A model generated the notes under the pieces. It made no database searches, had not been told where the DNA came from, and saw only the letters and a list, made by a program, of their open reading frames with translations. From Flavobacteriales bacterium (GTDB lineage Bacteria; Bacteroidota; Bacteroidia; Flavobacteriales_D; Sanyastnellaceae), in NCBI GenBank assembly GCA_029245065.1, contig JAQWQB010000089.1:1-55875 (forward strand): a stretch of 55,875 nucleotides of DNA. Reading direction: 5' to 3'. Position 1 is the stretch's first letter; every line of letters starts with the position of its first letter. The position numbers were made by a program, and so were the translations under genes. Shown here piece after piece: positions 1-23,900 of this stretch.

Positions 1-390
1 AACGGATTTTGCAAACTTCGCAAACCGTCTATGGACACTTGGTGATCCAAGTATTACTGATGACGTATACGGACAGTGTACATCATGTGATGCAGTTCCA
101 TTGACACTGACGGTAGATATGTCTTGTACAGCTACTCCAAACCCAACTGAAGTACGTATCACAGGTCCTTTCTGGGGCTGGGATCCAGCAGGTGGACCGG
201 TAGCGGTTGACAACGGCGATGGAACATGGACAATAACACTTGATCCTGCTCCAGCAGCGGATATGGAATACCTATGGGTTGTTGACGGAGTTCAAGAGAA
301 TTTGATCCAAGCAATGATCGACGGTGGTGATTGTGCTCCAGTAACGGATTTCGCAAACTTTGCAAACCGTCTATGGACAATTGGTGATCC
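1..390 (+). repeat. Direct repeat within the module array (1-48 and 343-390)
   Basis: Bases 1-48 and 343-390 are identical except at three positions and encode the same stretch, TDFANFANRLWT followed by GDP. The distance of 342 bases equals 114 codons, so the repeat unit is one whole protein module. Near-identity at the DNA level suggests recent tandem duplication of the module or gene conversion between copies; more copies may lie to the left of the window. Confidence 0.8.
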
Positions 391-1414
391 GAACATCTCT
401 GACGTATATGGTCAGTGTGGTGATTGCGGATCTGTTGACGGATGTACTGATTCTGATGCATCAAACTACGATGCAGCAGCTACAAATGATGATGGATCTT
501 GTCTTTATGAAGTGATGGTTTCAGTTGATATGAGTCAATATGGAAACGCTTTCACAACAGTTTATATCAGCGGAACATTCAACGGATGGGACGGTTTGTC
601 TAACCCATTGGATGATTCAGATATGGACAATGTGTGGGAAGGAACGGTATTGTTGCCAGCAGGAACAGTTGAGTACAAGTTCACCCACGATGATTGGATC
701 GGACAAGAAAACTTCGTAGGTGGAGAGTCTTGTACATCTACAATCGATGGATTCACCAACCGTACGCTTGATGTTGTAGGACCTACAACACTGAGTACTG
801 TATGTTGGGAAAGCTGTATCGCTTGTCAAGCAATTCCTTACACGTTAACATTCAGAGTTGATATGTGGAATGAAGTAGCTGATGCTGCAGGAGTTCACTT
901 AGCAGGTTCTTTCCAAGGATGGGACCCAGCATCTACTCCAATGACTTACATGGGGTACGGAATTTGGGAGTATTCAATCATCCTTAGCCAAGATGAAACA
1001 ATCGAATACAAGTTCCTAAATGGTAACGATTTTGCGATGAGCGAAATGGTGCCAATGGAATGTGGAGTTGACAACGGAATGGGCGAGTTCAACAGAACGC
1101 ACACTGTTGCTGGAGCTGATGAAGTAATCACTCTATGTTTCGGAGAATGTGACGCTTGTGCTGGTTGTACTGATCCTCTTTCACTTGAATACAACCCATT
1201 CGCAGGAATGGACGATGGTTCTTGTATGACTGGATTGGTGTACGGATGTACGTACTCAGATGCTGACAACTATGACGCAGCAGCGAACACAGACGACAAC
1301 TCTTGTATGTTTACTACAGGATCTGATTGTCCTGAAGACTTGAACGGAGATGGTTTAGTCAATGCAACGGATTTACTACAATTCCTAGGTGCATTTGGAA
1401 GTATATGTTTGTAA
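2..1414 (+). CDS. Secreted multi-module protein with starch-binding-like repeats (5' partial)
   Basis: The frame is open to the left edge, so the N-terminus is missing; a TTG at 101 is internal, not a start. The visible part consists of repeated beta-sandwich-like modules with the pattern V-D-M-S, then G-x-F-x-G-W-D, then a WE/WEY strand and EYKF. This pattern resembles CBM48/AMPK-type glycogen-binding modules. Between modules lie Cys-rich linkers of the form GCTDxxAxNYxxxAxxDDGSC. The last 30 residues carry one calcium-loop motif, DLNGDGLVNATDLL, like half of a type I dockerin, and there is no T9SS sorting domain. The last module and tail are paralogous to those of the GH16 protein that follows, so this may be another glucanase or a pure binding protein; the catalytic part, if any, lies outside the window. 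Confidence 0.85.
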   Translation, partial: TDFANFANRLWTLGDPSITDDVYGQCTSCDAVPLTLTVDMSCTATPNPTEVRITGPFWGWDPAGGPVAVDNGDGTWTITLDPAPAADMEYLWVVDGVQENLIQAMIDGGDCAPVTDFANFANRLWTIGDPNISDVYGQCGDCGSVDGCTDSDASNYDAAATNDDGSCLYEVMVSVDMSQYGNAFTTVYISGTFNGWDGLSNPLDDSDMDNVWEGTVLLPAGTVEYKFTHDDWIGQENFVGGESCTSTIDGFTNRTLDVVGPTTLSTVCWESCIACQAIPYTLTFRVDMWNEVADAAGVHLAGSFQGWDPASTPMTYMGYGIWEYSIILSQDETIEYKFLNGNDFAMSEMVPMECGVDNGMGEFNRTHTVAGADEVITLCFGECDACAGCTDPLSLEYNPFAGMDDGSCMTGLVYGCTYSDADNYDAAANTDDNSCMFTTGSDCPEDLNGDGLVNATDLLQFLGAFGSICL

Positions 1415-1450: not shown

Positions 1451-1477
1451 GGGGCCCAAATGTGGGTCCCTTTTTTT
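1451..1477 (+). terminator. Rho-independent terminator-like hairpin
   Basis: The arms 1451-1458 and 1463-1470 form an 8-bp GC-rich stem (one G-T pair) around a 4-base loop, followed at once by seven T. It lies 36 bases after the stop of the upstream gene and only 6 bases before the ATG region of the GH16 gene. It may end the upstream transcript or act as a partial terminator that lowers read-through into the GH16 gene. In-frame codons upstream of 1484 run through this hairpin, which argues against a longer N-terminus. Confidence 0.85.
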
Positions 1478-1483
1478 AATTTT

Positions 1484-6630: not shown

Positions 6631-8010
6631 ATGAGAACAACTCGACTCTTAATGGCAGCTGCTGTACTAGTAGCGCCTCTCTTTACATCTGCACAATCTG
6701 TGTACGATACGTTCGACGATGTGCGAACAGTTAATTACGGACTAGATATTCCTTTCGCTGATCAAATTGGAAACGGAATTGGAGGAACTGAATGGCCAGG
6801 ATGGCACGGAACCTTTATACAGTATGATTTGAACCCAGGTCCTGACGCTACAAACGACTCACCGATGTGCGGTCAGTACGTAAGAAATGCAAGTGAGTTT
6901 TACGACGTAGTGCTAGTACATCCAGGATTGATGGCTGATGTAGGGGATTACATTTCAGGGGCGAAGACGATGTCTTTCGATGTATTTTCTCCGCTACCAG
7001 GAATTACTGTTCAAATTACCTTAGAAAACGAATTATTGGCCATGGGTGGATACCCAGAAGGTCGTCACTCTGAATATACCGCTGTTACTACAACAGGAGG
7101 TGAGTGGGAAACACTAGAGTTTACACTAGCAGGTCAGCCTTGGACAGAAGCTGCAAACGCTGGGTGGTGGCCAACTGCTGCTGAAGCTCACATCGCTTGT
7201 GACCAAATGGTAATCCTTTTCGCGCCAGCTTCAAACACTGCTGATGTGTTCTACATGGACAATATCAATGGTCCAGAAAGAGTAGATGAGCCTTGCGCTG
7301 AGTCAAACACAGATCCAATTGTATTGATGGATGCTGATTGTGAGAATGATCGATTCATCAAAGAATACAGCGATGGCCGTTTAAGCATCTTTCCAGATCC
7401 ATTGAATGGTGACAATAACGTGCTTGAGTATGCACGTAACGGAGGTGCTTCTGATGATGTAATTGTTGGGAACTTCAACGGGGCATTGGAAATTGGAGAA
7501 AACGCTGTAATGACCATTGATTTGTTGGATTTAGCACCACCAAGTTCGTTGGTGTTTTCAATTCAGGATGCTTTTGGAACTGAACTAGCGCAATTCAACT
7601 TGACTTCGACGTTGGCAAATGAGTGGCAAACATTGGAAATGGATTTGAGCGCTTTAGAAGGTCTTCCAAATGCGACCAACTTCGTAATGCTTTTTGAGCC
7701 AGGACAATTGGTAGTTGAGTCTTATTACATTGATAACTTAACAATTGAGTCAATCATTGGTGTTGACGAACAGGCAACCACTTCTTTCAGTGTTTATCCA
7801 AACCCCTCTAACGGTGTGCTAAACATTGTCAATGAAGGGGCTGATAAGATCGCTTCAATTGAAGTGCTGAATTTAGCAGGGCAACTTGTTTACAGTACCT
7901 CGAAATTGACAAGTACGGTTGATGTGTCGTTTCTAAGTGAAGGAGTTTATTTCGTAAAAATTCAAACAGAATCAGGGGCTATTGCTACAGAGCGCGTTCT
8001 CATTCACTAA
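6631..8010 (+). CDS. T9SS-sorted surface protein with two carbohydrate-binding-like modules
   Basis: The signal peptide ends near FTSAQ. Two related beta-sandwich-like modules follow (about residues 22-215 and 220-370). Each has an FD/D start, aromatic patches (WPGWHGTF, GWWPT), a WETLEF/WQTLEMDL strand and a final FYMDNI/YYIDNL strand, a layout seen in CBM4/11-like binding modules. The last 80 residues are a type A T9SS C-terminal domain (VYPNPSNGVLNI ... GVYFVKIQTESG), so the protein is probably anchored on the cell surface. It is the first gene of the glucan operon. No catalytic motif is visible, so the inferred role is capturing glucan, like surface glycan-binding proteins. A similar module occurs in the GH16 protein at 17863. 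Confidence 0.8.
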   Translation: MRTTRLLMAAAVLVAPLFTSAQSVYDTFDDVRTVNYGLDIPFADQIGNGIGGTEWPGWHGTFIQYDLNPGPDATNDSPMCGQYVRNASEFYDVVLVHPGLMADVGDYISGAKTMSFDVFSPLPGITVQITLENELLAMGGYPEGRHSEYTAVTTTGGEWETLEFTLAGQPWTEAANAGWWPTAAEAHIACDQMVILFAPASNTADVFYMDNINGPERVDEPCAESNTDPIVLMDADCENDRFIKEYSDGRLSIFPDPLNGDNNVLEYARNGGASDDVIVGNFNGALEIGENAVMTIDLLDLAPPSSLVFSIQDAFGTELAQFNLTSTLANEWQTLEMDLSALEGLPNATNFVMLFEPGQLVVESYYIDNLTIESIIGVDEQATTSFSVYPNPSNGVLNIVNEGADKIASIEVLNLAGQLVYSTSKLTSTVDVSFLSEGVYFVKIQTESGAIATERVLIH

Positions 8011-8019
8011 AAAATAGAC

Positions 8020-9711
8020 ATGGGAATCCTTGATTACGGAATTGTTATAGCCTATTTCGTACTCGTTTTTTTTGTTGCCTTTTGGGTGACGAGACGAGAA
8101 CGTAAGGAGAAGTCTTCGTCGTCCTACTTTTTAGGAGGAAAGAACTCCAGTTGGTTCGTTATAGGTGCGTCATTGTTCGCCTCCAACATTGGTAGTGAAC
8201 ACCTAATTGGTCTATCCGGATCCGGAGCCAGAGGGGATTTTGTTAATGGTCAATTCGAGTTGTTGGCTGCTTTAATCCTTATCCTCCTAGGTTGGGTATT
8301 TGTACCCTACTACCTTAAAAGTGGTGTTTACACCATGCCTGAATTTCTGGAAAAGAGATACAACAGAGGAGCCAGAAATTACTTAAGTGTGATTTCGATC
8401 TTGGCGTATGTCTTGACAAAAATTTCTGTTACCATCTTCGCTGGAGCCTTGGTCTTTGACCAATTGCTTGGGGTTGAATTCTGGACAGGAGCCATATTGG
8501 TGGTTGTTGCCACAGGGGTTTACACGATTTTTGGAGGATTAAAGGCGGTTGTTTACACCGACTTGGTTCAAATGTTCGTGCTCACCGCAGGTGCCATAGC
8601 CGTTACATGGTTCGGTTTAGATGCGCTAGGTGGGTTAGATGCACTGACAAAGTCTATAGACGCCAACGCGGGTGAACAAGCAGGGAACTATTTCAATCTC
8701 TGGCGATCAAATTCAGACACCAATTATCCATGGACGGGAATCTTATTTGGTGCCCCAATCCTCGGAGTCTGGTACTGGTGTACAGATCAGTTCATTGTTC
8801 AGCGTGTGCTTTCAGCTAAGAATCAAACGGAGGCGAGAAGAGGAACAATCTTCGCTGGTTTCCTAAAGCTTCTTCCGTTATTCCTTTTCGTATTCCCAGG
8901 AACAATTGCTTTCGCATTGCACAATACAGATGGGGTACTATTGTTAGATAGTGCAGGTGAGATTTCTCATGATAGCGCCCTTCCAGCAATGGTTATCTCT
9001 TACTTGCCTTCAGGAATGAAAGGATTAGTTGCAGCTGGATTATTGGCAGCCCTTATGAGTTCCCTGAGTAGTGTTTTCAACTCTTGTTCAACATTGGTGA
9101 CAATGGATTTTTACAAGTTGTGGAAGCCAGATACTGCCGAACGAAAACTAGTTGTCGTAGGCCAGGTAACAACCGCAATTCTTGTTGTAACAGGTCTATT
9201 GTGGATTCCATTCATGAAATCGATGATGCAAGATGGTGGGTTGTTCAAATACCTTCAAAGTATACAAGCCTACATTTCGCCTCCAATTGCAGCTGTTTTC
9301 TTGCTGGGACTATTCGTCAAGAAAATCAATGCCAAAGGAGCACTGGCTGCTTTATGGACTGGCTTCGTGCTCGGAATTGGAAGATTGGTGTTGGAATTCC
9401 TTTCGACCCCTCCTTCAGATGGATCCGAAGCAATCCTTGACCTTGGAAATGGAACATTTTTATCATGGGTAGTAGGAATCAATTTCCTTCACTTCGCCTT
9501 ACTCTTATTCTCAATTTGTAGTGTTGTGATGATCGCAGTAAGCTACGCTAGACAAGAAGGAGCTAAAGACGTTTCTGACCTGGTGTACTCTCGGAAGGCA
9601 AGCACCAACAAATGGGGCATTGTCATGAGAAGAGATCTGGCTTTGACCATTGTTTTGATCATAAGTGTAATCGCTATTTGGTTCATATTTAGCCCATTAG
9701 GAATCGCATGA
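8020..9711 (+). CDS. SGLT-type sodium:sugar symporter (SSS family)
   Basis: The protein has 563 residues with about 14 hydrophobic segments and family-typical stretches: SSSSYFLGGKNSSWFVIGAS near the N-terminus, ASNIGSEHLIGLSGSGA (helix 1-2 region of the SGLT fold), YTIFGGLKAVVYTDLVQ and LMSSLSSVFNSCSTL. These match the sodium/glucose subgroup of the solute:sodium symporters. It starts 9 bases after the preceding stop and overlaps the next gene by 4 bases (ATGA). In the locus it would import glucose or short oligosaccharides across the inner membrane after hydrolysis. The exact sugar cannot be read from the sequence. Confidence 0.93.
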   Translation: MGILDYGIVIAYFVLVFFVAFWVTRRERKEKSSSSYFLGGKNSSWFVIGASLFASNIGSEHLIGLSGSGARGDFVNGQFELLAALILILLGWVFVPYYLKSGVYTMPEFLEKRYNRGARNYLSVISILAYVLTKISVTIFAGALVFDQLLGVEFWTGAILVVVATGVYTIFGGLKAVVYTDLVQMFVLTAGAIAVTWFGLDALGGLDALTKSIDANAGEQAGNYFNLWRSNSDTNYPWTGILFGAPILGVWYWCTDQFIVQRVLSAKNQTEARRGTIFAGFLKLLPLFLFVFPGTIAFALHNTDGVLLLDSAGEISHDSALPAMVISYLPSGMKGLVAAGLLAALMSSLSSVFNSCSTLVTMDFYKLWKPDTAERKLVVVGQVTTAILVVTGLLWIPFMKSMMQDGGLFKYLQSIQAYISPPIAAVFLLGLFVKKINAKGALAALWTGFVLGIGRLVLEFLSTPPSDGSEAILDLGNGTFLSWVVGINFLHFALLLFSICSVVMIAVSYARQEGAKDVSDLVYSRKASTNKWGIVMRRDLALTIVLIISVIAIWFIFSPLGIA

Positions 9712-11672
9712 AAAAGCTATTAATCGCATTGATATGCGTAGTTCCGCTTTCTTTATTAGGGGCTGACAATGATTCCCTTTCTTGGAAGGGGTCTAGTCAC
9801 AGACCTTCGTACCGCTTGAATAAGCTGACAGAAGGGTTCTCTCTTGGCGGGTACTATCGCTTTTATGGCTTGAATAGAAACCTGGTAGAACCTTTCAGGG
9901 TTCTTTCAGATAACCAATTCGCCAATACACCTCCATTCGTATTTGGAGTTGGAGATGTTTACCGTGACCCACCCATCTTTTTGATGACGGCGTCAGTTCG
10001 ACCTGGTGGTGGAGCGAGTATCAGCATGGATTACGCGCTGTATTCGAATTTCACAAATAGCAACGGTAGCGTGCCTTCTAACTTGAACCTTGGTATTAGC
10101 TTGTATGGAACCGTTCCCATGGAATTCGGTAAACTCGGATTTCAATTAGGCGGTATCAACTGGACCGATGTCAGTGGAATGACATTTTCTAGTTTCGCGG
10201 GATATGATCGATTTAGCCTTTTCGAGCGTTGGGCTTGGGAAGGAATTGGTCAATCTTCAGACAGAGCTTCTTTGTTTCTTGAAACCGGACGAATCAATCG
10301 TGAAGAACGATGGGCGCGTCAAGCATTCAAAGGAATATTGGTAGATCTGTATGAACTCCCATGGGGGCTTTCAACTAGAGTGCTTTATGGGAAAACTCCT
10401 GCAACAATAAGCTTGGACGATAATGTTCCACGCTTTACAGTGGGAGGTAGACTTCGCAAGAATGTAGGGTCGAACCACGTTGGGTTCAACTCAATGAATT
10501 ACGTTCAGTATGAAGATTCAACTGCGCAAACACGTTCGGGAATTGGATTGCATACAGCAGATGTTCAATGGAGTTTTGACAAGTTTCAAATTACAGCGGA
10601 AGGAGGAATTGCCGAACGCTATTCTCCAGATGGTACAAGAGAAACGGGGGAAGGAGTGCGTGTAAACATCATGCTTGATTCCTCACTTACGAAGTTGCCA
10701 ATCGAAGTAGGTTTCTTTCGTTTGTCGCCTCAGTTCATCAACTACTACGGAAACTTCCTCAGTTTGAACACACAGTTCTTGAGTGATGCCGCATCGCAAA
10801 GTGTAGCTGGAGGTGGAGGTGGTGCCACGAACTTCGTAGGAAGTATTACAGATGTTGGCCAAATCTTAAACAACCGCCAAGGATTCACATTGAATACGTG
10901 GTGGAAAAAGAAGAATACGAGCATTAATGTTGGGTCCATGATCTCGCAAGAGATGGAGCGTTTATCGAACAGGCTTTCTTTTGGACATAAGATAAACGGA
11001 CAAACATTGTCGCGTTTTGCCCCATTTGCAACGGGTGTGGGTCCGTATAGAAGATGGACATCGTTCTACAGAGGTGTAGCGGAAGAGCTGTTTATTACCG
11101 ATGTTGATACAACGGGACTTCCAATGTCGAAAATTCATTTCAACACAGTTCAACTTCAATTCAAGCAGCGAATGATGTTGAAAGACAAAGCGTTGTATTT
11201 GCTTTACATTGGAACGTATGGAAGTGCTGCCGATAAGTTCTCGGTATTGCCAATTTTTGATGATGGCGCTTATTTAAGAACAAGCTATTCAGAGTTTGAC
11301 CTTATTTACGACTTATCGAAAACCTTCGACGTATCCCTAGCCTTTGGTCTAGAACGTATTCAAGGAAATAGCCAAACAAACAATATTTATTACCTCGATG
11401 ACTCCGGCGCATTGGCTGGGGCAACCATTACTGAAGATGAGTTGATAGACGGAACATACATTCCAGCAGCTTCTTATGAAGGCGCATCAACTCCTAGTCT
11501 GACATTTGTAAATCAAAAGTCGCGTATGATAGGCGCCGGAGTGGATGTGAAATTATCACCACACTCAGGTTTGTACATCAGACACCGAAGATTTTGGCAA
11601 AAGGATGACGGTTTTACCGCAGACGATATTGAGGGAACAGAAACTACAATCGAATTAAAAGTTTATTTCTAA
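9708..11672 (+). CDS. Predicted outer-membrane beta-barrel protein 1 of the glucan operon
   Basis: The signal peptide MKKLLIALICVVPLSLLGA is followed by about 630 residues of alternating polar/hydrophobic strands with many Tyr/Phe/Trp and Gly. The chain ends in ELKVYF, with the terminal Phe typical of outer-membrane barrels. A Gly-rich loop (SVAGGGGGATNF) is unusual. There is no TonB box, plug or SusC-like N-terminus, and the length is well short of SusC (about 1000). I do not recognise the family. The start overlaps the symporter stop (ATGA) and the stop overlaps the next start by one base, so it is co-translated with a sugar transporter and another barrel. Inferred role: porin or secretion partner for glucan oligosaccharides. 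Confidence 0.75.
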   Translation: MKKLLIALICVVPLSLLGADNDSLSWKGSSHRPSYRLNKLTEGFSLGGYYRFYGLNRNLVEPFRVLSDNQFANTPPFVFGVGDVYRDPPIFLMTASVRPGGGASISMDYALYSNFTNSNGSVPSNLNLGISLYGTVPMEFGKLGFQLGGINWTDVSGMTFSSFAGYDRFSLFERWAWEGIGQSSDRASLFLETGRINREERWARQAFKGILVDLYELPWGLSTRVLYGKTPATISLDDNVPRFTVGGRLRKNVGSNHVGFNSMNYVQYEDSTAQTRSGIGLHTADVQWSFDKFQITAEGGIAERYSPDGTRETGEGVRVNIMLDSSLTKLPIEVGFFRLSPQFINYYGNFLSLNTQFLSDAASQSVAGGGGGATNFVGSITDVGQILNNRQGFTLNTWWKKKNTSINVGSMISQEMERLSNRLSFGHKINGQTLSRFAPFATGVGPYRRWTSFYRGVAEELFITDVDTTGLPMSKIHFNTVQLQFKQRMMLKDKALYLLYIGTYGSAADKFSVLPIFDDGAYLRTSYSEFDLIYDLSKTFDVSLAFGLERIQGNSQTNNIYYLDDSGALAGATITEDELIDGTYIPAASYEGASTPSLTFVNQKSRMIGAGVDVKLSPHSGLYIRHRRFWQKDDGFTADDIEGTETTIELKVYF

Positions 11673-13444
11673 TGAGAACCAAATACATACTACTATTGAT
11701 TGTAGGATGGCTTTCATGCATGACTGCGGAAGCACAAAATGATAAATTGACGGTCTACGGATCTGGTCGATTCATTCTGCAAAACAACAGTCGCTCTGGG
11801 GAGCTCTTTCAAGAATCTATTCTGAACGGAGATACGTTAGCAGCAGACACCGTGAGCACTCGCCGAGAAATTGGTGGTGTAGCGTTGTTCGATCTTGGTT
11901 TTCGAATCAAACCAAACAGCTCAACTGAAATCAATGCATTGACGCGTGTCAGCGGAGATCTAGATGGATTTTGGGGGGCTGGAATAGGATTCACGTTTCG
12001 TGAGCTTTACGTAAGAGGTTTGGTGAAGAACAAAGTGAGATACCGTGTTGGTGATCTTGACTTGAAAATGACGCCGTTCACCTTGTACAATTCGAATCCA
12101 GACTTGGGGACCCATAGCATGAGTGCGTTGAGTCTATTTCAAGACATCAATGAATACGAGAACTTCTCACGTGACAATCAGTGGAGACAACAAGGTGCTC
12201 ATATCGACTTTCAATTACTGATGGGAGAGAAGGGAGACCGTGTTGATTTCATGGGATACATGACGAAGAACAGACAAACGGATTTCTTTTTCGTGCCAGA
12301 CCGCCTTATGACAGGAGGTCAAGTGGTTTGGAATAGAGAAGGACTTGGTCGGGTTTTTGCCCAAACAAACAACTTCTTCGAAATTGCTGAAACAGCTCAG
12401 TTCAACGAAGGGACTTCTGCAACCAGTGCACATTCCTTGGGTGCTGAGTTAGCGCCGTTTGATAACAAGTCCTTTGTCTTATACGGAGAAGGTGGAATGT
12501 CATACCAAGGCTATGTTGAGCAAGAAGGAGCACCTGAAGAGAAAGAGATCAGCGGGTTTGTTGACCTTGGATTGCGTAAACCAGCCAAAGACGGAAAATT
12601 TGGGTACTACGGTGAAATCATGCACGTAAGTTCAGGATTCAGAAGTCCGGGTGCTCAATCACGTCGTGTGAACTTCAACTCGTTCGCTCAGAATTTAACT
12701 TTTGAGACGAATCAGGAAACAACTCGAGCGCTAACGGCTTTCGACTTGATTCAGGACGCAACCGTTTACAACAATACCATTGTGGTGAATCTTCAAGATT
12801 TCCACCCGGGATACAGCAACGTACTTCCTTACGGAAAGGCTACACCTAACAGACAAGGTTTGCTTGCAGGAATCGTGAGAATGGCTGATTCGTTAGTAGT
12901 TTCGAAAGTAGGAGCAGATGTTGCTTTGCTTACCGAGGCTTCTGGACAAGGAATTGCTACCTACCGAAACTTTGCCATGGTTGATATTGACGCTGAACTG
13001 TCGCTTCATAACCTCTGGGGAGGTAAAATGAAGACGAAGGTTGAAGCTCACTTTCACCTCGAAAATACGAGTAGAGATGGGTTGGATGCTGAGTCAGCTG
13101 CTGTGGCAGGGATCGGCGAATTAGACTTGTCGTCAAACTACTTTGAAGCTGGTATTTCACATGAAATAGCTGAAGGACTTGCCTTGCATGTTGCAGCCGT
13201 TGGACTTTCAGCAAATGGAAATGAATTCATTGCGTTGCGTGATGGGTTTGGCCAGGTGGTTGACTATACTGACGCTGAATACGATTTTTCAGACATGACT
13301 TATTTAGTTGGTATGAGATACGGTTTCTCTCCAACATCAAATCTTCAGGTTCAATTTAGAACCTCAGAAATTACAAATGAACTAGACCCAACCAGTGGGT
13401 ACAACTGGAATCAGTTCATTTTCACTTATAACCTGTTCTTCTAA
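11672..13444 (+). CDS. Predicted outer-membrane beta-barrel protein 2 of the glucan operon
   Basis: The signal peptide ends near AEAQ. The mature part has amphipathic strands (YGSGRFILQNNSR, ELYVRGLVKNKVRYRVGDL) and ends in FTYNLFF, with an aromatic C-terminus as in outer-membrane barrels. Its start codon shares one base with the stop of the preceding barrel gene and its stop shares one base with the following lipoprotein start. No TonB plug is visible. The sequence resembles poorly characterised Bacteroidota barrel proteins (possibly DUF6029-like, not confirmed). Together with the gene before it, it may form an outer-membrane channel pair that replaces SusC. Function is inferred from context only. 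Confidence 0.75.
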   Translation: MRTKYILLLIVGWLSCMTAEAQNDKLTVYGSGRFILQNNSRSGELFQESILNGDTLAADTVSTRREIGGVALFDLGFRIKPNSSTEINALTRVSGDLDGFWGAGIGFTFRELYVRGLVKNKVRYRVGDLDLKMTPFTLYNSNPDLGTHSMSALSLFQDINEYENFSRDNQWRQQGAHIDFQLLMGEKGDRVDFMGYMTKNRQTDFFFVPDRLMTGGQVVWNREGLGRVFAQTNNFFEIAETAQFNEGTSATSAHSLGAELAPFDNKSFVLYGEGGMSYQGYVEQEGAPEEKEISGFVDLGLRKPAKDGKFGYYGEIMHVSSGFRSPGAQSRRVNFNSFAQNLTFETNQETTRALTAFDLIQDATVYNNTIVVNLQDFHPGYSNVLPYGKATPNRQGLLAGIVRMADSLVVSKVGADVALLTEASGQGIATYRNFAMVDIDAELSLHNLWGGKMKTKVEAHFHLENTSRDGLDAESAAVAGIGELDLSSNYFEAGISHEIAEGLALHVAAVGLSANGNEFIALRDGFGQVVDYTDAEYDFSDMTYLVGMRYGFSPTSNLQVQFRTSEITNELDPTSGYNWNQFIFTYNLFF

Positions 13445-14499
13445 TGAAAAATGCTCTAATACTTATTTGCGTTGCTTTCGTTGCATTCGTAGGATGTCGT
13501 AAAGACGAAATTGAAGGACCTGAACTCCAGGATATTTTTGGAGAGTTTGATGTGTTTGAAAGCCTCACTGCTGATTCCGAAACGGTCAACTTTGAAAATG
13601 GAGAAATGATCACCTTCAGTGCTCAATTGTCTATTCGTACCGATTGGGTCATTACCGTTGAGGGAATGACTTCTGGTGCACGTTATGAGATCGAAGGAAG
13701 AGAACGTGATATCCAAGGAGATGTAGCAACATGGAATGGAAGAATCACGTTCGCACCATTGTTCTCTACGGAAGATGTGAAGACATACATGACCTTTGTA
13801 AATTACCCAGATACGCTTTGGGGAGATACTATTACTGTTGAAGGCGTGAAACCTGAAGCGTTGGTTGATGTATTGATCTCTGATTTTTCTACTGGAAACG
13901 GGTGGGGAAGCTTCGCAGAAGCCGCCGCAACCAATCAGCAATTGACAGGAAGCTACTTCGTGCAAAACCCGTTGAACCCGGAGCCTGATTTCATTCAGGT
14001 CTTTTCTCCAGAAGGAGAGGGTCATTGGAGAATGACGTACCTCAATAACAACAGTATTTTCATTTGTGGTGCGAACATTCTTGCGGAACAATCTCAACAA
14101 GCAGAGACTTCACCGTATTTCGAATTGGGTACAACCAATCCTGACAATGTGTACATCAATATGTTGATACACGGGTTTGGTGACGGAAACACTCGAATGT
14201 CCATTGGACTTCAGGAAGACGATAACCTGGATGGAGCATACGATCGATTCACAGAAGGAACTTACAACACCGAACTTGTGGTTGACTGGGTAGGATGGAA
14301 AGTTGTTTCTATTCCACTTAGTAGCTTCAACATCAGTACAGTTGGAGGTTTTGGTAACATCGATGGAACAGGAAATCAAGATATTGACCGAATACTAAGT
14401 GTTGAATTCTTGCTGCTTGCAGCTGAAGGAAGTACAGGGTTTGTAGGTTATGGAATGGATTACTGCAACTTCACAAGATACACGCCATGGAATCCTTAA
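13444..14499 (+). CDS. Predicted surface lipoprotein, glycan-binding candidate
   Basis: The lipobox FVGC places the lipidated Cys at residue 18. It is followed by RKDEIEG; a Lys followed by acidic residues just after the Cys fits the Bacteroidota lipoprotein surface-export signal, so the protein is probably on the outside of the cell. An Ig-like N-terminal part (about 30-135) precedes a beta-sandwich-like part (about 140-351) with aromatic residues (GNGWGSF, VDWVGWKVVSIPLSSF, GYGMDYCNF) as in binding modules. The position just after the barrels recalls SusE/SusF or other surface glycan-binding lipoproteins, but the sequence is not SusD-like. It overlaps the next gene by 13 bases. Confidence 0.75.
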   Translation: MKNALILICVAFVAFVGCRKDEIEGPELQDIFGEFDVFESLTADSETVNFENGEMITFSAQLSIRTDWVITVEGMTSGARYEIEGRERDIQGDVATWNGRITFAPLFSTEDVKTYMTFVNYPDTLWGDTITVEGVKPEALVDVLISDFSTGNGWGSFAEAAATNQQLTGSYFVQNPLNPEPDFIQVFSPEGEGHWRMTYLNNNSIFICGANILAEQSQQAETSPYFELGTTNPDNVYINMLIHGFGDGNTRMSIGLQEDDNLDGAYDRFTEGTYNTELVVDWVGWKVVSIPLSSFNISTVGGFGNIDGTGNQDIDRILSVEFLLLAAEGSTGFVGYGMDYCNFTRYTPWNP

Positions 14500-15635
14500 A
14501 AATTAGTTTGATTGCCGTATGCGCCGTCTTTTTTGCAGGTTGCGCTGTTACGATGCAGGAATTGACATTGGAAGATGTTGGTATTGTTCCGCTTGAAGGA
14601 TCTGATGGTTTTGATTACTTCAGATCTAGACAGGTTTTTGTCAACAGTACAGTTGATGTATGGGGACTTGAAAAAGATCCTTGTAAAGAGTTTACCTCGG
14701 TTTCGGCAGAAGGTGGACAAGCGCTTCAGCTGCAGTGGAATAAAAACAGCTGTGATTGGGTAGGTTTTGGAATAGGATGGGACGGATGGTCTCCCAAAGA
14801 CCTGAGCTCTATTTCAGAGACGGGAGCGTTCTTCTTTGATGTGAAAGCTGTCAATGATCGTGCAACTATTCCAACCTTGATCTTTTTATTACAAGATTAC
14901 GGCGGAGTAAATTCAGCAGGAGTCGTAGGAAGCCACTGCATGGAGCGTTACCCAATTGATTCGGAATGGCAAGAGTTTCAGTTAACATTAGATCGTTTCG
15001 ACCTGAAGAGCTCTGGTATTGACTTGACCAACATTAAGCAGCTGGTAATTGAATTCCAAGGTGCTGGTGACATCATCATTGACAACATTCGGATTGGACC
15101 GAAAGAAACACGCGACACCAGTAAAGACAAGAAAGCATTCCCTGCGAGCAAAGTGCCTATGGAGCCTACGGTTTTGTTTGAAACAGAATTTCAAAACGTG
15201 TGGGGACTAGGATCTTACGACCAGCGAAACTTTCAAATGACCAAGATTGACGGGAATACTGTCATGGAACTTGATTGGAAGGCTTGCACTGACTGCAAGA
15301 CCTATGAGATGGGCTTTAGCTGGGCCAAGTGGAAAGCAGTTGATGCATCCGATTTTGAAGGCTTTTTAGAACTAGAGGTACTGAACAAAGCAGGCAATAC
15401 GCCTTCTGTACCAATGTTTTTCAACCTTCAAGCATATGACTATTCGAACAAGAGCGTGCAGCTCACCAGCGAATGGGTTGAAGGAGGAAGATATGATGGA
15501 CAATGGCGAAAGGTTCGAATCCCATTGTCTGAGTTCACTGATTTTATAGATAAATCAGGAATCAAACAGCTCCAATTCCAAATGAAAGAAGAAGGAAGTT
15601 TGTTGATTGATAACATGAGAATTGTCGGAAAATGA
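14487..15635 (+). CDS. Lipoprotein with two tandem binding-like modules
   Basis: The lipobox FAGC gives a lipidated Cys at residue 19; the following residues (AVTMQEL) lack the acidic surface-export signal, so a periplasm-facing location is more likely. Two homologous halves (about 45-210 and 230-382) both begin with VWGL and contain a xxLxLxW strand, G-F-x-x-W-x-x-W aromatic patches, a WQEFQLTL/WRKVRIPL strand and a closing IIDNIRIG/LIDNMRIVGK. This layout matches CBM11/CBM4-type beta-sandwich modules. Its start lies inside the end of the preceding gene and its stop overlaps the GH3 start (ATGA). It may hold oligosaccharides for the GH3 enzyme. No catalytic motif was seen. Confidence 0.75.
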   Translation: MESLKISLIAVCAVFFAGCAVTMQELTLEDVGIVPLEGSDGFDYFRSRQVFVNSTVDVWGLEKDPCKEFTSVSAEGGQALQLQWNKNSCDWVGFGIGWDGWSPKDLSSISETGAFFFDVKAVNDRATIPTLIFLLQDYGGVNSAGVVGSHCMERYPIDSEWQEFQLTLDRFDLKSSGIDLTNIKQLVIEFQGAGDIIIDNIRIGPKETRDTSKDKKAFPASKVPMEPTVLFETEFQNVWGLGSYDQRNFQMTKIDGNTVMELDWKACTDCKTYEMGFSWAKWKAVDASDFEGFLELEVLNKAGNTPSVPMFFNLQAYDYSNKSVQLTSEWVEGGRYDGQWRKVRIPLSEFTDFIDKSGIKQLQFQMKEEGSLLIDNMRIVGK

Positions 15636-17866
15636 AATTAAAATTTAGCGTATTGGCCATTGCTTGCTTCACCTTTGTTGCGTGCGAACAGCCAACAACA
15701 AAAGAAGCTGCCAAAAGCAATAAAGCACAAGGAGAAAATTCGTTCGTAGACAGCGTGTTGGCTTCGCTTTCAGTGGAAGAGAAGATTGGTCAAATGACGC
15801 AGTTGACGCTTGACATGCTCGTTGTAGGACCTGCATACGTGGCGGAAGAGCCTCATACCATTGACCCAGCTAGAATGGACACCGTGTTTAATCAGCTTCA
15901 TGTTGGTTCAATTCTGAATTGCGCGGGACATTCCTATTCTAGAGAGAAGTGGCTAGATTTTCACCGCAGTATCAAGCAATATACAGACAGTAGCAGAAGT
16001 GAAATTCCAGTATTGTATGGCATTGATGCCATCCACGGCGTAACCTACACCGATGAGTCAACGCTGTTTCCACAACAAATAGCGCTAGCATGCTCTTGGG
16101 ATACTGCCATGGCAAAACGAATGGGAGCAATAACTGCTTATGAAACACGTGCTTCAGGTATTCGATGGAATTTTTCACCCGTATTGGATATCGCAAGAGA
16201 CCCACGTTGGCCGCGATTTTGGGAGACGTTTGGTGAAGATGTACTCTTAGTTTCTGAGATGGGTGAATCCATCATTGACGGGTACCAAGGAGATGAAATA
16301 GGGGATGACCACGTAGCAGCATGCTTAAAGCACTTTTTGGGCTATAGTCAGGCGCTGAGTGGGAAAGACAGAACACAAGCTTGGATCCCAGAAAGACAAT
16401 TACGGGAGTATTTCTTGCCGCAGTTTGAACAGGCCATTGACGCTGGTGCCATGACCATCATGATTAACTCTGGCGAAATGAATGGAATTCCTGTACACGT
16501 GAACAAGACAATCCTCACTGACCTTCTTCGAACTGAATTAGGATTTGAAGGATTAGTAGTTACTGACTGGGAAGATATTAAGTACTTGGTAAGCAGACAC
16601 AAAGTAGCAGCCACATACAAAGATGCAATCGAGATGAGTATCAATGCCGGAATCGATATGAGCATGGTGCCTGTTGACTATGATTTTCCTGTTCTCTTGA
16701 AAGAGTTGGTTGATGAAGGCCGAATTAGCGAAGATAGATTGGACCTTTCTGTTCGTCGTATTCTGCAAGTAAAATATGATTTGGGTCTCTTCGGACACGA
16801 AGTACCGACCGTTGAAGATTATCCTGATTTTGCAAGTGATGCGCACAAAGCAACAGCACTAGAAGCCGCAAAAGAATCACTTGTTCTTCTGAGAAACGAA
16901 GACGTTCTTCCATTGTCTAGAAATCAAAAGTTACTGATTGCTGGCCCGAATGCAGACGATCTAAACGCTTTGAATGGCGGTTGGACACGTACTTGGCAAG
17001 GAGATGACGCTAGTTTGAACACGCCTGGTAAGTTTGGCGTATTCGGCCAACTTCAACAAGAAGGAGTAGCCGTAGAATTGTGGGCAGGAAATGCAAATGG
17101 TTTGTCGTCAAAAGCCAAAGGAAAAGATGCTGTAGTTTTAGTAGTGGGTGAAAAGCCATACACGGAAACGCCAGGAGATATTGAGAGCCTTGATTTGCCG
17201 AAAGATCAATTGGATCTGATTGAAGCGGCAGGAGAACTGAACACTCCCGTCATTTTAATTGTAGTTGAAGGAAGGCCAAGAACGTTCAATTTGCCTGACC
17301 AAGTGGATGCTGTTATGCTAGCGATGTTGCCGGGAGATTTTGGTGCAGAGGCTATTTCAGCCGTTCTTTTCGGAGAACATAATCCATCTGGAAGGTTGCC
17401 TTTTACTTACCCTAGGTATGCCTCTTCACATGCTACGTATGACCACAAGCACACCGACTTAATTTCACCAACCTTTGGAACCGACGCATTTAACCCGCTA
17501 TTCCAATTCGGTGCGGGCTTGTCGTATTCTGAGTATGAATATAGTAACCTCACACTTTCATCTGACACGTTAAGTCTTGATGATGAACTTGAATTGAAAG
17601 TAACTGTTTCTAACGTATCGGAAATTTCGGGTAAAGAGACTGTTCAAGTGTATGTTACAGACTTGGTAGCTACGATTACACCATCTGTAAAACGCCTTCG
17701 CGCCTTCCAGAAAGTGGAAATCGAAGGAGGTGAAAATGTTGAATTGACCTTTACGATTTCAATGAGTGATTTGGCTTTTGTAAATGAGTCACTCGATTGG
17801 GAAACGGAACCCGGTGAATTCAACGTTCAAATTAACAATCAAACAGCGTCGTTTTGGATAAAATGA
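15632..17866 (+). CDS. GH3 beta-glucosidase lipoprotein
   Basis: The lipobox FVAC gives Cys18. The N-terminal GH3 barrel (about 40-380) has the family hallmarks GIDAIHG, RDPRWPRFWETFGED, KHFLGY and VVTDWED, with Asp312 as the predicted nucleophile. The GH3 C-terminal alpha/beta domain (about 410-620, LVLLRNEDVLPL) and a fibronectin-III-like end (about 640-744) complete the common three-domain layout at the usual length. It would remove glucose from the non-reducing end of beta-glucan oligosaccharides. It overlaps both neighbours by 4 bases. No acidic residues follow the lipid Cys closely except Glu19, so the lipoprotein may face the periplasm. Linkage preference is inferred from the two GH16 enzymes nearby. 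Confidence 0.95.
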   Translation: MKLKFSVLAIACFTFVACEQPTTKEAAKSNKAQGENSFVDSVLASLSVEEKIGQMTQLTLDMLVVGPAYVAEEPHTIDPARMDTVFNQLHVGSILNCAGHSYSREKWLDFHRSIKQYTDSSRSEIPVLYGIDAIHGVTYTDESTLFPQQIALACSWDTAMAKRMGAITAYETRASGIRWNFSPVLDIARDPRWPRFWETFGEDVLLVSEMGESIIDGYQGDEIGDDHVAACLKHFLGYSQALSGKDRTQAWIPERQLREYFLPQFEQAIDAGAMTIMINSGEMNGIPVHVNKTILTDLLRTELGFEGLVVTDWEDIKYLVSRHKVAATYKDAIEMSINAGIDMSMVPVDYDFPVLLKELVDEGRISEDRLDLSVRRILQVKYDLGLFGHEVPTVEDYPDFASDAHKATALEAAKESLVLLRNEDVLPLSRNQKLLIAGPNADDLNALNGGWTRTWQGDDASLNTPGKFGVFGQLQQEGVAVELWAGNANGLSSKAKGKDAVVLVVGEKPYTETPGDIESLDLPKDQLDLIEAAGELNTPVILIVVEGRPRTFNLPDQVDAVMLAMLPGDFGAEAISAVLFGEHNPSGRLPFTYPRYASSHATYDHKHTDLISPTFGTDAFNPLFQFGAGLSYSEYEYSNLTLSSDTLSLDDELELKVTVSNVSEISGKETVQVYVTDLVATITPSVKRLRAFQKVEIEGGENVELTFTISMSDLAFVNESLDWETEPGEFNVQINNQTASFWIK

Positions 17867-19644
17867 AAAAGTGGATAGGAAGTGTTCTGTTTCTAGGGCT
17901 AATGACCTCAGGTTATGCTCAATGTGAACAGCTAGTGTGGAGTGATGAATTCGACTCTCCTTCAATTGACTTAGACAATTGGTCTTTTGAAATAGGTGAT
18001 GGTTGTCCAGGGCTTTGTGGCTGGGGGAATGCTGAACTACAGTATTACACAGATAGTCAAGAAAACGCGTTCATAGAAGACGGAAAACTTATTATTCAAG
18101 GACAATACAACCCAGGAGATCAATTTGAATACACCAGTGCCCGATTGATTACTGAAGGGAAACAAACGTTTGCCTCAGGAAGAATAGAAGCACGTATCAA
18201 AATGCCTCAGGGACAAGGAATGTGGCCGGCCTTCTGGATGCTTCCGGAAGAAAGAAAGTATGGAAATTGGCCGCTCTCTGGAGAAATAGACATTACAGAA
18301 ATGGTGGGGTTTGATCCTGCTACAACACACGGTACCGTTCATTACGGACCGATGTGGCCCAACAATCAATTTACCGGTGAGTCAGCATCATTGTCTTTTG
18401 GCATTCTTGCAGATGACTTTCACACATACGCTGTAGAGTGGAGTGATGAAGAAATTAGATGGTTCATTGATGGTTCGTTGTTTTCAGTGAGAACAATATC
18501 GAATTTGGGAGATTTCCCATGGAGGTATGATCAGGAGTATTTTATCATCCTAAACCTCGCAATTGGTGGATATTGGCCAGGCTACCCTGACAACTCTACG
18601 TCGTTTCCTCAACGCATGGAAGTGGATTATGTGCGAGTTTACCAAAAAGCAGATGACACGTTTATTGTAGGACCTGATTTTGTTGCTGCAGAAGCACAAG
18701 GGATCGAATATACCGTTCCAACATTTGAAGGAGCAAGCTACAACTGGACAGCGACCAATGGAGAAGTGACGTCAGGACAGGGTTCTGAAGCGGTTACAGT
18801 TGATTGGCAAGAAGGTGAATCACAAGAAGTAACCGTTGCAATTTCATATGACGGCTGTACACAAAACGTTACTAGAGATGTTCAAGTTGGTGGAGTCTGT
18901 CAGACCGTTTTTGCCAATTTTGAAGATGTTCGAGAAGCTCAGTGGACATGGTTTAATGGGTCATACAGCGAATTAGGAGTTCCTTTTCCAGATGAAGTGA
19001 ATAGTAGTTTTTCATGCGCGAAATATACCCGCGGAACTGACGGTCAATCTGCCCTGAGAATGGGGATCGATGGGATTTCCAATTCCTTGGATTTCGAGTC
19101 TGGTGACAAGGTGCTTGCCATGAAGGTGTTAACCAATGCCCCGGTTGGAACGGTCTTAAAAATCTATTTGGAAAACCACCGAATGACAGGTTTTCCATCG
19201 TTGAATGGAAGAAGAAGCTCATTCACTGCTCAAACTTCAGCAACCCAAGAGTGGGAAACGCTGTACTTCACGTTCGAGCAAGTCATTGACATGAACGTAT
19301 CAGAGTTAGAGGTTAACCACCTTACGCTGCAGTCAACAGTGGCAGAAAATATTGCATACGTTTTTTACCTCGATGACATTTCGAGTTTCGAAAGTGACTG
19401 TATCACCATTGGACTAGAAGAAGTAGGGAACAAAACGTCTGCTTTGAATGTAGTTCCAAACGCTAATGGAATAGGTGTAATGGCAAACGAAACAGGAACG
19501 GTGTCCGTTTTCGGAATCACGGGACAACTCATCGCAAACCAGCAAATCAACGCATTCGAGCAAGAAGAGATTCAACTTCCCTCAGGAGCGTACATTGTCT
19601 CTTGGAACAATGGCGTCTCGAACCAAAAAGTAATCATCCAATGA
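17863..19644 (+). CDS. GH16 endo-beta-glucanase with PKD-like and binding-like modules
   Basis: The ATG at 17863 overlaps the GH3 stop and begins a signal peptide (MKKWIGSVLFLGLMTSGYAQ); the TTG nine bases earlier is not needed. The GH16 domain covers about 22-262, with the catalytic motif EIDITE giving Glu141 and Glu146. A PKD/Ig-like domain (about 265-345) and a module (about 348-515) similar to those in the protein at 6631 follow. The last 75 residues look like a T9SS type A sorting domain that is weakly conserved at its start (LNVVPNANGIGV) but normal at its end (LPSGAYIVSW ... QKVIIQ). Like the GH16 protein at 1484 it should cut beta-1,3 or mixed glucans, but here on the surface and inside the operon. 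Confidence 0.92.
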   Translation: MKKWIGSVLFLGLMTSGYAQCEQLVWSDEFDSPSIDLDNWSFEIGDGCPGLCGWGNAELQYYTDSQENAFIEDGKLIIQGQYNPGDQFEYTSARLITEGKQTFASGRIEARIKMPQGQGMWPAFWMLPEERKYGNWPLSGEIDITEMVGFDPATTHGTVHYGPMWPNNQFTGESASLSFGILADDFHTYAVEWSDEEIRWFIDGSLFSVRTISNLGDFPWRYDQEYFIILNLAIGGYWPGYPDNSTSFPQRMEVDYVRVYQKADDTFIVGPDFVAAEAQGIEYTVPTFEGASYNWTATNGEVTSGQGSEAVTVDWQEGESQEVTVAISYDGCTQNVTRDVQVGGVCQTVFANFEDVREAQWTWFNGSYSELGVPFPDEVNSSFSCAKYTRGTDGQSALRMGIDGISNSLDFESGDKVLAMKVLTNAPVGTVLKIYLENHRMTGFPSLNGRRSSFTAQTSATQEWETLYFTFEQVIDMNVSELEVNHLTLQSTVAENIAYVFYLDDISSFESDCITIGLEEVGNKTSALNVVPNANGIGVMANETGTVSVFGITGQLIANQQINAFEQEEIQLPSGAYIVSWNNGVSNQKVIIQ

Positions 19645-20909
19645 GATTTTTAGCAACATTTATTTGTCTTCTAGTTGTTTGCAGTGCACAAGCACAAGGA
19701 CCGGCTAAAGTAGAAATCAAGCAACAGAATGATCAGTGGACACTGTTGAAGAATGGTGAGCCTTACTACGTAAATGGCGCAGGAGGTCACGTGCGAATGG
19801 ATGTTGTTGTTGAATGCGGTGGTAATACCATTCGTACTTGGGGATTAGACAATGCGAAGCAAATCTTGGACGAAGCACACAGCCACGGATTAATGGTGAT
19901 GTTAGGACTTTGGATGGCACATGAACGCCATGGTTTTGACTACAGCGATGAATGGGCAGTTGAAGATCAGGTAATCGGGTTTACACAAGCCGTGAAAGAG
20001 TTGAAAGATCACCCAGCGCTGCTTCTTTGGGGAGTAGGGAATGAGGTTGACCTGTTTTACTCAGATTTGAATGTGTGGACAGCAACTGAACGAATTGCCG
20101 CTATGATTCATGAAGTAGATCCAAATCACCCAACGTGTGCCGTAACTGCAGGAATTGATGTGGCGGAAATTCAACTCATTCAATCCATGGCACCAAGTGT
20201 TGATATTTTAGGAATCAACACTTACGGTGGAATTGATGGACTGAGCACGCAAATTGACTTGTACGGATGGACAAAGCCTTATTTGGTAACAGAGTGGGGA
20301 CCAACAGGACACTGGGAAGTAGCAAAGACTTCTTGGGGAGCGCCAATTGAAGAAAGTAGTACAGAAAAAGCAACTGCCTACCACAACAGGTATTTACAGG
20401 GAATTGCTGCTGATAAAGAGCAGTGCATGGGGTCTTTTGTGTTCCATTGGGGGCAGAAACAAGAAACAACACCTACCTGGTACGGAGTATTTTTGGAGTC
20501 TGGAGAAAAAACGCAAGCCATTGATGTTTTGCACACGGTTTGGAGTGGAAAAGAACCTTCAACCAAAGCTCCGGAGATCAGTGTTTACAAGATCAATGGG
20601 AGTACTAAGGAAGACGGGCCTAAGCTAGCTGGAGGGCAAAAAGTGAAGGTAGAATTGGAATATTCAGATGCCGATAACGATGTAACTGCCGTGGATTGGG
20701 AACTGCTTCCAGAAAGTACAGATATCAAGGCTGGGGGAGACGTTGAAGAACGACCTGATGCCATTGCTGGAGCTGTGACCTACTCTATGACCTCTGGAGC
20801 GGCCACGTTAGACGTGCCAGCTGTTTCAGGACCATACCGCCTCTTTGTTTACGTTAGAGATAAAGACGGTAAAGTGGCTACTTCAAATATTCCTTTCTGG
20901 GTAGATTAA
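19641..20909 (+). CDS. Clan GH-A glycoside hydrolase, possibly GH158 endo-beta-1,3-glucanase
   Basis: The ATG at 19641 overlaps the preceding stop and starts a signal peptide (MRFLATFICLLVVCSAQAQ). Residues about 20-310 form a TIM barrel of the GH-A type: WGVGNE supplies the acid/base Glu135 after strand 4 and LVTEWG supplies the nucleophile Glu218 after strand 7. An Ig-like domain (about 320-422) follows. Size, Glu spacing and domain order fit GH158, known from a gut Bacteroides beta-1,3-glucan locus, but members of GH2, GH5 or GH17 share the barrel and I cannot assign the family with certainty. It is the last gene of the operon and its stop overlaps the convergent sensor kinase gene by 4 bases. 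Confidence 0.75.
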   Translation: MRFLATFICLLVVCSAQAQGPAKVEIKQQNDQWTLLKNGEPYYVNGAGGHVRMDVVVECGGNTIRTWGLDNAKQILDEAHSHGLMVMLGLWMAHERHGFDYSDEWAVEDQVIGFTQAVKELKDHPALLLWGVGNEVDLFYSDLNVWTATERIAAMIHEVDPNHPTCAVTAGIDVAEIQLIQSMAPSVDILGINTYGGIDGLSTQIDLYGWTKPYLVTEWGPTGHWEVAKTSWGAPIEESSTEKATAYHNRYLQGIAADKEQCMGSFVFHWGQKQETTPTWYGVFLESGEKTQAIDVLHTVWSGKEPSTKAPEISVYKINGSTKEDGPKLAGGQKVKVELEYSDADNDVTAVDWELLPESTDIKAGGDVEERPDAIAGAVTYSMTSGAATLDVPAVSGPYRLFVYVRDKDGKVATSNIPFWVD

Positions 20910-23900
20910 GCGTGTCCTAATCGGCCAAGAACTTCTATCAATTCTTCGGGTTTGAAAGGTTTGGTGATGAAGGTATCCATTCCGGCATCAATCACCTTGT
21001 CTTTCGATTGCGTCAATGCAGATGCCGTCAGTGCCACGATAGGAATATGTTTGTTCAACCCTTTCTCTTTTTCACGAATGCACTTTGTGGCATCAATTCC
21101 GTCCATTTCAGGCATTTGAAGGTCCATTAGGATAACATCAAAGTCTTCTTTTTCCCACATGGCGACGGCTTCTAAACCGTTTTTGGCGACCTTAAACTCA
21201 ACGTCCCATAGCTTCAAAAAGCTTGTAGCAACCATGATGTTCATGTCGTTGTCTTCAGCAAGGAGAATTTTGAGTCCCTTGATGTCTGACGAATTTTCCT
21301 TTTCCAACGGCGTTTCAATCACGCAACCTTGACGGGTTTCCAGCCAAACTTCGAAGATGAAGCTTGTTCCTTTGCCTTCTTCACTCTCGATTCGAATGTC
21401 GCCCCCCATTATTTCCAAAGTACGCTTTACAATAGCCAGCCCCAATCCGGTTCCGCCGTACATTCTGGTGGTGGAAGAATTGGCTTGCGTGAAGGATTCA
21501 AATACAAGAGCTTGTTTGTCTTTTGGGATACCAATCCCCGAATCCTGCACTTCGATGGATAGTAATGTTAAGTTTTCGTTTTCAGCAACTTTCTTCACTT
21601 TCGTTACCACACCTCCTTTCGAAGTAAACTTAATGGCATTCGATAAAAGGTTCATGATCACTTGACTCATTCGAGTTGAATCCATTTCAACCAAATCAGG
21701 TACATCTTCAGCTACCTCCCAATCAAGTCCAATTTCTTTTTGCTTGGCCTGAACACCTATGCTCATATGCACATTCCGCATGAACTGTCTAATGCCTATG
21801 GTTCTGTTTTCTAACTCAAGCTTCCCAGATTCAATTTTGTTGTAATCGAGAATATCGTTGAGGATGCCCAATAAGTTTGTCGCCGAAAACTTCAGCGACT
21901 CCATCTTTTCGGTCTGATCATCATCCAGGCTTGATTCCAACATCAAGTGAGAAATACCAATAACAGCGTTCATCGGCGTTCTAATTTCATGGCTCATGGT
22001 ACTCAGGAATTGACTTTTAGCCAAGGCTGAACGTTCTGCTACATCTTTTGCCAATTCGAGCTCTGAAGTTCGCTCTTGAACCAAGTTGGAAAGCCTGATT
22101 TCTCTTTTCTTGTAACGATACCTTTGCAAGAATATGACAAGCAGTCCTAGCGTAGTGAGTAAGACAGTTGCGAAAACAATGAACCAAGTAGAGAAATACC
22201 ATACTACGTTCGTCCTAATAGGAAGAATGGTGGTATCACTCCAAAGGTGGTTTCCTTTTTTCAAGGCCTGAACCTCCAAAGTGTAGTTTCCTTCGCTCAA
22301 GTGATTTACTATAATTCCGTTCCCCAACTCAGGGTTAGACCATTCCTCAGAAAGGGTCGGTATTCGCCAACGGTATTCAACATGCCTCTCTGGGTATTCC
22401 GGAGCACGAAAATCAATTTTCAACATGTCTTGCGTGTCGATTTCTACTTTTGAAACCAACTCAATATTTTCACCACTTCTATTTAGCGAGACAATGATAG
22501 GGGCAGAACTCTTCTCTGGAATAAGATCAATAGGCATGTAAGCGAGTCCATTGTTCGTTGCTACCCAAAGGGCATTGTCGTGAGTTAGAAGCCCTCGGTA
22601 TTGTTGGGTTTTAGCAGGTAGTCCTTGCTTGGCATCGAAAATGAGTTGACTGCGCTCGTCGATTCGAATGAGACCAACACTGGCGCCAACCCAAAGTGCT
22701 TTTTCTGTAGCCGAGATACTTTTGATCTCTTCATCGGTAAGTCTGCCAAGAGAAAACCGATCCAAGTTCTGGTCGTGCAATGTTAACAGACCAAAATTAC
22801 TAGCCAGCCAAACGCTGTCATTGCGAAATGAAAGGTCATTTACTTTCAGTGGAAGATTGTGGTCAAAGTTGAGTGGTTCACTCACATTGATAAATCGTTC
22901 GGTATCTTCACTGTACTTGAAAAGGTAACTCTCGTCGCCATAAGCGCCACAATAAACAGTGCCATCGGGGCTTGTTCTCAAAACGGTCGGGTCAGCTGTC
23001 AACCCATCGTCTTCGCCCAACATAAAGTAGCTAAATTCAGAAAGCATGCAAATGATTTCTGGGTTCCCTTCTTGTAGGCACCAAACCCTTCCTGAGTTAT
23101 CAATTTCAACCTCGTGAATACCATTCCCACTGCGGCTGAAGTTCTGAATCATACGCGCCCCATAGTCAGTCTTTTTGTACACTTTACCTCGGTCGTCTGT
23201 GAAGAAAGTGTTTTGGTTGATTTCAAAGGAGCACAGCACTTTGTTGTTGTGATGATGAATTTGTTCTGGTAATTTGTCGGGCGCTACTCTGATTAAATTA
23301 TTTCCTTGCGAAATTAATACTGACTCATTTTCCGAAGCACTTAAATCAGCAATAAATGAAAAGGAATTCAGCGTGCTCACTTGCTGAAAGGACTGTGGTT
23401 CAAGGAAGAAAAGCCCCTCGTCAGAACTAACCCACATTTCGTCTCCAAAACTATTGATATGGTTTACGGAGCCAACCACCTTAGCATCAAACAACGTGGT
23501 AACCAGTGAGTCTTTTTGCGTGGACTTTTGAAGAATACCTTGTGCCCAACTCCCAAAGAATAAATTCTCTTCGAACCATGCAAAATGGCTAGATTCCATA
23601 TCAGCTAAAAGACTCACGTCGCTCGTATCTTGACCATTCCAAGAATAAAGACCACTTGAAGTGCCGAAGTAAATCTTGCCATCGTGATCCATCGCATGAT
23701 TTACTTGACCAATTCCTTTCAATGTGTTGATTTCCTCAAAATGGTTTTTCTCCGGCGAAAGTTTGTAGGCACTTCCTTTCTGAGCAAATACAAAAACGTC
23801 CCCCGCCAGCTCTACCATGCACCCGGCTCTTAGGAAACATTCAGACGTATTCATTTTTCCAAATTCATAGTAGTCCCATTCATCTTTATAAAAACGCCCT

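Follow-up and report, generated by a model that had tools for sequence, protein, structure and literature searches.

We describe a nine-gene operon of a marine Flavobacteriales bacterium (Sanyastnellaceae, Flavobacteriales_D) that is probably a beta-1,3-glucan (laminarin-type) utilization system, in which a quartet of genes for two candidate outer-membrane barrels and two lipoproteins (BARREL1, BARREL2, LIPO1, and LIPO2) provides an outer-membrane stage that replaces SusC and SusD. The core of the system is this barrel-barrel-lipoprotein-CBM quartet plus GH158, and the accompanying symporter is replaceable. The quartet most likely binds beta-1,3-glucan oligosaccharides and, we infer, admits them without SusC/SusD.

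Organization of the operon

The window, i.e., the whole stretch of DNA that was analyzed, is 55,875 nt long and corresponds end to end to contig JAQWQB010000089.1 (C92; assembly GCA_029245065.1). Since it spans the entire contig, the left flank of the operon is unreadable here. The initial annotation had placed nine overlapping genes at 6631-20909, and the open reading frames were found there, all in one direction. The features of the locus are:

2..1414, +, CBM-like-module protein, upstream, truncated by the contig end; homologues at the same position in loci L023 and L025
1439..3595, +, second GH16 with CBM48/AMPK-type modules, upstream (GH16 3.8e-24, AMPK1_CBM 4.4e-15); also upstream in L023, L025, and L057
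3592..6468, -, divergent Y_Y_Y-domain regulator with LuxR-type HTH (Y_Y_Y 1.1e-6, GerE 1e-4); position kept in close relatives
6631..8010, +, T9SS-sorted surface protein, putatively glycan-binding (Por_Secre_tail 1.7e-15); heads the operon in close relatives as well
8020..9711, +, SGLT-type sodium/sugar symporter (SSF 1.8e-90; PDB SGLT1 6.9e-116)
9708..11672, +, BARREL1, candidate outer-membrane barrel, quartet gene 1 (weak OMP_b-brl, C-terminal Phe, paralogue of BARREL2)
11672..13444, +, BARREL2, candidate outer-membrane barrel, quartet gene 2 (weak OMP_b-brl, C-terminal Phe, hhalign to BARREL1)
13444..14499, +, LIPO1, putative surface glycan-binding lipoprotein with LES-like signal C-R-K-D-E, quartet gene 3
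14487..15635, +, LIPO2, CBM30-like lipoprotein, quartet gene 4 (CBM30 9e-11, SGBP_B_XBD 0.0012)
15632..17866, +, GH3 beta-glucosidase, probable lipoprotein (GH3 N, C, and Fn3-like domains; PDB BoGH3B)
17863..19644, +, laminarinase-type GH16 with PKD-like domain and T9SS tail (GH16 1.7e-22; TIGR04183 4.5e-6)
19641..20909, +, GH158 endo-beta-1,3-glucanase family member (9oro, BuGH158 6pal; catalytic residues)

With the likely ATG starts, the operon junctions are overlaps of 1-13 bases and a single 9-base gap, which separates the T9SS-protein gene from the symporter gene (8010/8020). Overlaps measure 4 bases at 9708 (symporter/BARREL1), 1 base at 11672 (BARREL1/BARREL2), 1 base at 13444 (BARREL2/LIPO1), 13 bases at 14487 (LIPO1/LIPO2), and 4 bases at 15632 (LIPO2/GH3). 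The GH3/GH16 overlap is 4 bases with ATG 17863 or 13 with TTG 17854, and that of GH16/GH158 is 4 bases with ATG 19641 or 43 with TTG 19602. The two ATG codons are the likely starts, and both GH16 and GH158 would therefore begin in 4-base overlaps. The Y_Y_Y/LuxR-type gene is the probable regulator of the operon. On the upstream, laminarinase-type GH16 (1439-3595) the CBM48/AMPK-type, glycogen-binding-like modules are repeated, and similar modules make up the protein at 2-1414, a feature kept in L023, L025, and L057. Convergent with the operon end lies a gene for a hybrid sensor kinase (20906-24340, -) that carries Y_Y_Y and receiver domains and is without an AraC output domain.

Enzymes, symporter, and substrate

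Domain matches confirmed the T9SS protein, the SGLT-type symporter, GH3, and GH16 as annotated; the product of the first gene, 6631..8010, gave no catalytic family match in profile searches. The protein initially annotated as a GH-A enzyme proved to be GH158 (9oro, 6.8e-98; BuGH158 6pal, 1.7e-77). Its catalytic Asn-Glu and Glu are invariant among 15 homologues, and the matching residues are essential in BuGH158 (PMC7157763). With this assignment, the GH16/GH158/GH3 set equals that of the Bacteroides uniformis beta-1,3-glucan locus. The nearest PDB structures are laminarinase 3azx for GH16 (1.6e-72) and BoGH3B for GH3 (3.6e-171), while the symporter best matches SGLT1, SGLT2, and vSGLT. Considering the B. 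uniformis enzyme set, the laminarinase-like GH16, the BoGH3B-like GH3, and the SGLT-like symporter, the substrate is likely beta-1,3-glucan and the imported product likely glucose, as judged from sequence and structural matches.

The barrel and lipoprotein quartet

BARREL1 and BARREL2 matched no Pfam, NCBIfam, or PDB family, PDB profile searches included. OMP_b-brl was weakly matched by 2 of 21 BARREL1 homologues and 3 of 19 BARREL2 homologues. Outer-membrane barrels often end in phenylalanine, and a C-terminal Phe is present in 20 of the 21 and 16 of the 19, respectively. The hydrophobic-alternation score exceeded that of shuffled sequences for BARREL2 only, and this score separates barrels poorly from soluble proteins. 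AlphaFold models from four-row alignments gave no usable fold for either protein (pLDDT 28.6 and 41.5). The initial annotation of the two as outer-membrane-barrel candidates is thus plausible from the weak OMP_b-brl matches and the C-terminal Phe, the barrel fold itself being short of proof. Compared with each other by hhalign, the two align over their full length with an E-value of 2.3e-13 (reversed controls, near 0.1), and by this profile evidence they are ancient full-length paralogues. Neither Plug nor TonB_dep_Rec was matched by any BARREL1 or BARREL2 homologue, and profile comparison detected no relation to TonB-receptor barrels; the plug and TonB-receptor barrel that mark a TonB-dependent transporter were therefore both missing from BARREL1 and BARREL2. 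A search of plasmid records found no BARREL1 relatives.

The two lipoproteins were as annotated, with visible signals (LIPO1, ..VGC/RKDEIEGP; LIPO2, ..AGC/AVTMQ). In LIPO1 the signal C-R-K-D-E agrees with C-X-K-(D/E)2-X at the lipid-bearing cysteine, and a C-X-K-(D/E)-type signal directs lipoproteins of Capnocytophaga to the surface (PMC5080379). The lipobox and acidic motif are conserved in most LIPO1 homologues: at least 2 acidic residues stand at +2 to +6 in 40 of 59, and position +2 or +3 is basic in 53 of 59. CBM_11 was weakly matched by 6 of 20 LIPO1 homologues (best, 0.0019), and a PDB profile search with LIPO1 returned chance-level matches only. LIPO2 matches CBM30 structures by profile (4e-6) and is without a lipobox in part of the order. 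Neither LIPO1 nor LIPO2 gave a match to SusD.

Absence of SusC and SusD

As initially annotated, the window holds no SusC or SusD; profile searches gave no match on its contig. The genome has a single SusC over the cut-off (TIGR04056) and a single SusD, which are adjacent on contig C54 and adjoin two GH13 alpha-amylase-type genes. In the relative G020, a single-contig genome, the sole SusD match lies ~850 kb from the operon. A SusC/SusD pair just left of base 1 was therefore rejected as far as this could be tested, since the genome's own pair sits with GH13 on another contig and the pattern in G020 agrees. Both a linked SusC (TIGR04056) and a linked SusD (PF07980/PF14322) are missing from the locus, and clustered glycosidases, a surface binding protein, and a regulator are present. 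Judged by what defines a SusC/SusD locus, it falls outside that class, although it would work like a member in its predicted role.

Barrel-bearing genomes that are at least 90% complete number 68. PF14322 was unmatched in 26 of them; 25 of these 26 were searched with PF07980, which was unmatched in 24, leaving 24 such genomes in which both SusD families went unmatched. Four of the 24 (G092, G014, G017, and G052) also had no SusC over the cut-off. Since profile searches may miss divergent members, this evidence of independence from SusD is strong but not absolute.

Conservation and linkage to GH158

The order BARREL1-BARREL2-LIPO1-LIPO2 was kept in 64 neighborhoods wherever the region was complete enough, the median gaps being 1, 2.5, and -4 bases. 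GH158 was found in 53 of these neighborhoods, GH3 in 36, and GH16 in 30, several regions stopping at contig edges. An SSF symporter was present in 12 of 64, and an MFS transporter adjoins two others that were checked; the initial description of a self-contained system with a sodium symporter was therefore too narrow. Close relatives retain almost the entire locus, including the divergent regulator, and relatives keep gene order at 40-70% protein identity.

Across 349 genomes of the order, BARREL1 occurred in 111 and GH158 in 110. They were found together in 106 (BARREL1 alone in 5, GH158 alone in 4), i.e., in 106 of the 115 genomes with either, and 94 of the 106 pairs shared a contig within 10.5 kb. 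Fisher's test of co-occurrence gave 1e-77, a value that ignores shared ancestry and is not usable as a probability. Chance clustering was rejected on the basis of this co-occurrence and of the gene order kept at 40-70% identity. Another 40 regions with GH158, almost all of them from genomes beyond the order, contained no barrel (one had a SusC/SusD pair), so the barrel-GH158 link is not an artifact of GH158 detection. Within the reach of these tests, the barrels form an unnamed family tied to glycosidases rather than a known, unrelated one.

Proposed mechanism and alternatives

Enzyme families, catalytic residues, gene order, linkage to GH158, and the missing SusD matches were computed directly, and the following pathway may be drawn from them. 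At the cell surface, the glucan would be acted on by two T9SS products, the GH16 and the binding protein, and the fragments would be held by LIPO1, with its LES-like signal, and the CBM30-like LIPO2. Given the predicted barrel topology and pore function, oligosaccharides would enter through the paired paralogous barrels; as to energetics, TonB is probably not needed, since no plug domain was detected in them. At their predicted periplasmic location, GH158 and GH3 would cut the oligosaccharides to glucose, which the SGLT-type symporter would take up.

The main rival to this pathway is that the locus serves beta-1,3-glucan but the barrels are scaffolds that anchor or assemble the surface binding proteins and enzymes, import being left to an unlinked TonB-dependent receptor or a general porin. 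This genome has ~30 TonB-receptor-like matches, any of which is a possible carrier, other barrel-bearing genomes have 17-42, and the barrels have no relative of known function. However, the two barrels invariably come as a pair that is tied to GH158, and across 64 regions the locus shows no linked TonB-receptor family, one weak match to the genome's SusC aside; we consider a scaffold role unlikely, if still a serious contender. Import through the barrels is the reading we prefer, and the glucan that it would serve can also be questioned. The quartet lipoproteins gave CBM11- and CBM30-like matches, and such domains of known enzymes bind beta-1,4-containing glucans. A different or broader beta-glucan (mixed-linkage or cell-wall glucan) would fit this, and BuGH16 also cuts mixed-linkage glucan (PMC7157763), but GH158 and the nearest GH16 structures indicate beta-1,3-glucan, which makes a substrate other than laminarin rather improbable.

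Polysaccharide export loci also contain barrels and glycosidases, so one could imagine that the cell makes, remodels, or exports its own beta-glucan here. The window operon, however, has no glycosyltransferase or export gene and includes a sugar symporter; there are T9SS-secreted hydrolases, and Y_Y_Y, LacI, or Nudix-type regulators are nearby. A glucan biosynthesis locus was accordingly rejected as scarcely credible. The initially suggested alternative uptake system for glucose-based glycans holds in that the locus serves beta-glucan without SusC/D and combines two barrel candidates and binding lipoproteins with a symporter of the glucose type, while uptake through the barrels keeps the standing of a prediction. 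More tentatively, the paired barrels with LIPO1 and LIPO2 could be a glycan importer of Bacteroidota that is dedicated to its substrate, independent of TonB, and separate in its evolution from SusC/SusD; it would serve beta-1,3-glucan in about one third of the sampled genomes of the order, including some without detected SusC or SusD.

Relation to known systems

The locus shares with B. uniformis 1,3GUL the enzymes GH16, GH158, and GH3 as well as a regulator and a lipoprotein that binds glycan at the surface. Where 1,3GUL has SusC and SusD (PMC7157763), however, the present locus has two barrel-type proteins that are unrelated to them and a different pair of lipoproteins, and its symporter lies inside the operon. 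Marine flavobacterial laminarin PULs likewise combine GH16 and GH3 in one locus of T9SS bacteria, but these are recognized through SusC/D, and the GH158-barrel quartet is not mentioned in the accessible text of those reports (PMC6794258, PMC6246565). Glycosidase clusters without SusC/D have been reported as CAZyme loci without susCD (the "CAZyme clusters" of PMC10108472; PMC10811738), although in the accessible text these are residual categories, and a conserved outer-membrane module is not named for them. In the open-access literature searched, a scope that sets aside subscription journals and preprints, the quartet is undescribed and susCD-less loci appear only as a residual category. The quartet may be an outer-membrane module of its own, perhaps a separate class.

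Laminarin is a main algal storage carbohydrate and a major marine carbon pool. SusC/SusD genes are the common basis for inferring that Bacteroidota use glycans, and a bacterium with the quartet would be recorded as having no beta-glucan locus. A Crocinitomicaceae strain reported to be without PULs (PMC12313589) would be a case in point if it carries the quartet. With the quartet genes as markers, genomes and metatranscriptomes can readily be scanned again, and SusC/SusD-free import of polysaccharide fragments in Bacteroidota becomes directly testable.

Cassettes in other genomes

A scan of the phylum with BARREL1 found it in at least 6 of 395 genomes, a lower bound because the best three candidates were scored per genome. 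BARREL1-type cassettes occurred in four genomes outside the class (L082-L085), three with GH158 nearby, and in L083 the cassette is preceded by a LacI-family regulator gene. Their occurrence suggests spread, or deep ancestry with regulator exchange. In L069 and L071, one genome carries two barrel cassettes separated by ~10 kb, of which the second reads BARREL1, BARREL2, LIPO1 until the region ends. In L064 (10931-14598), a Nudix-type (NrtR/AraR-like) regulator gene and gapA-, pfkA-, and BadF-type-kinase-like genes, identified from N-terminal sequence only, stand beside the barrel cassette. A similar Nudix-type regulator gene set (L055, 14559-18394) adjoins the SusC/SusD locus with GH13 genes in the genome from which the window comes.
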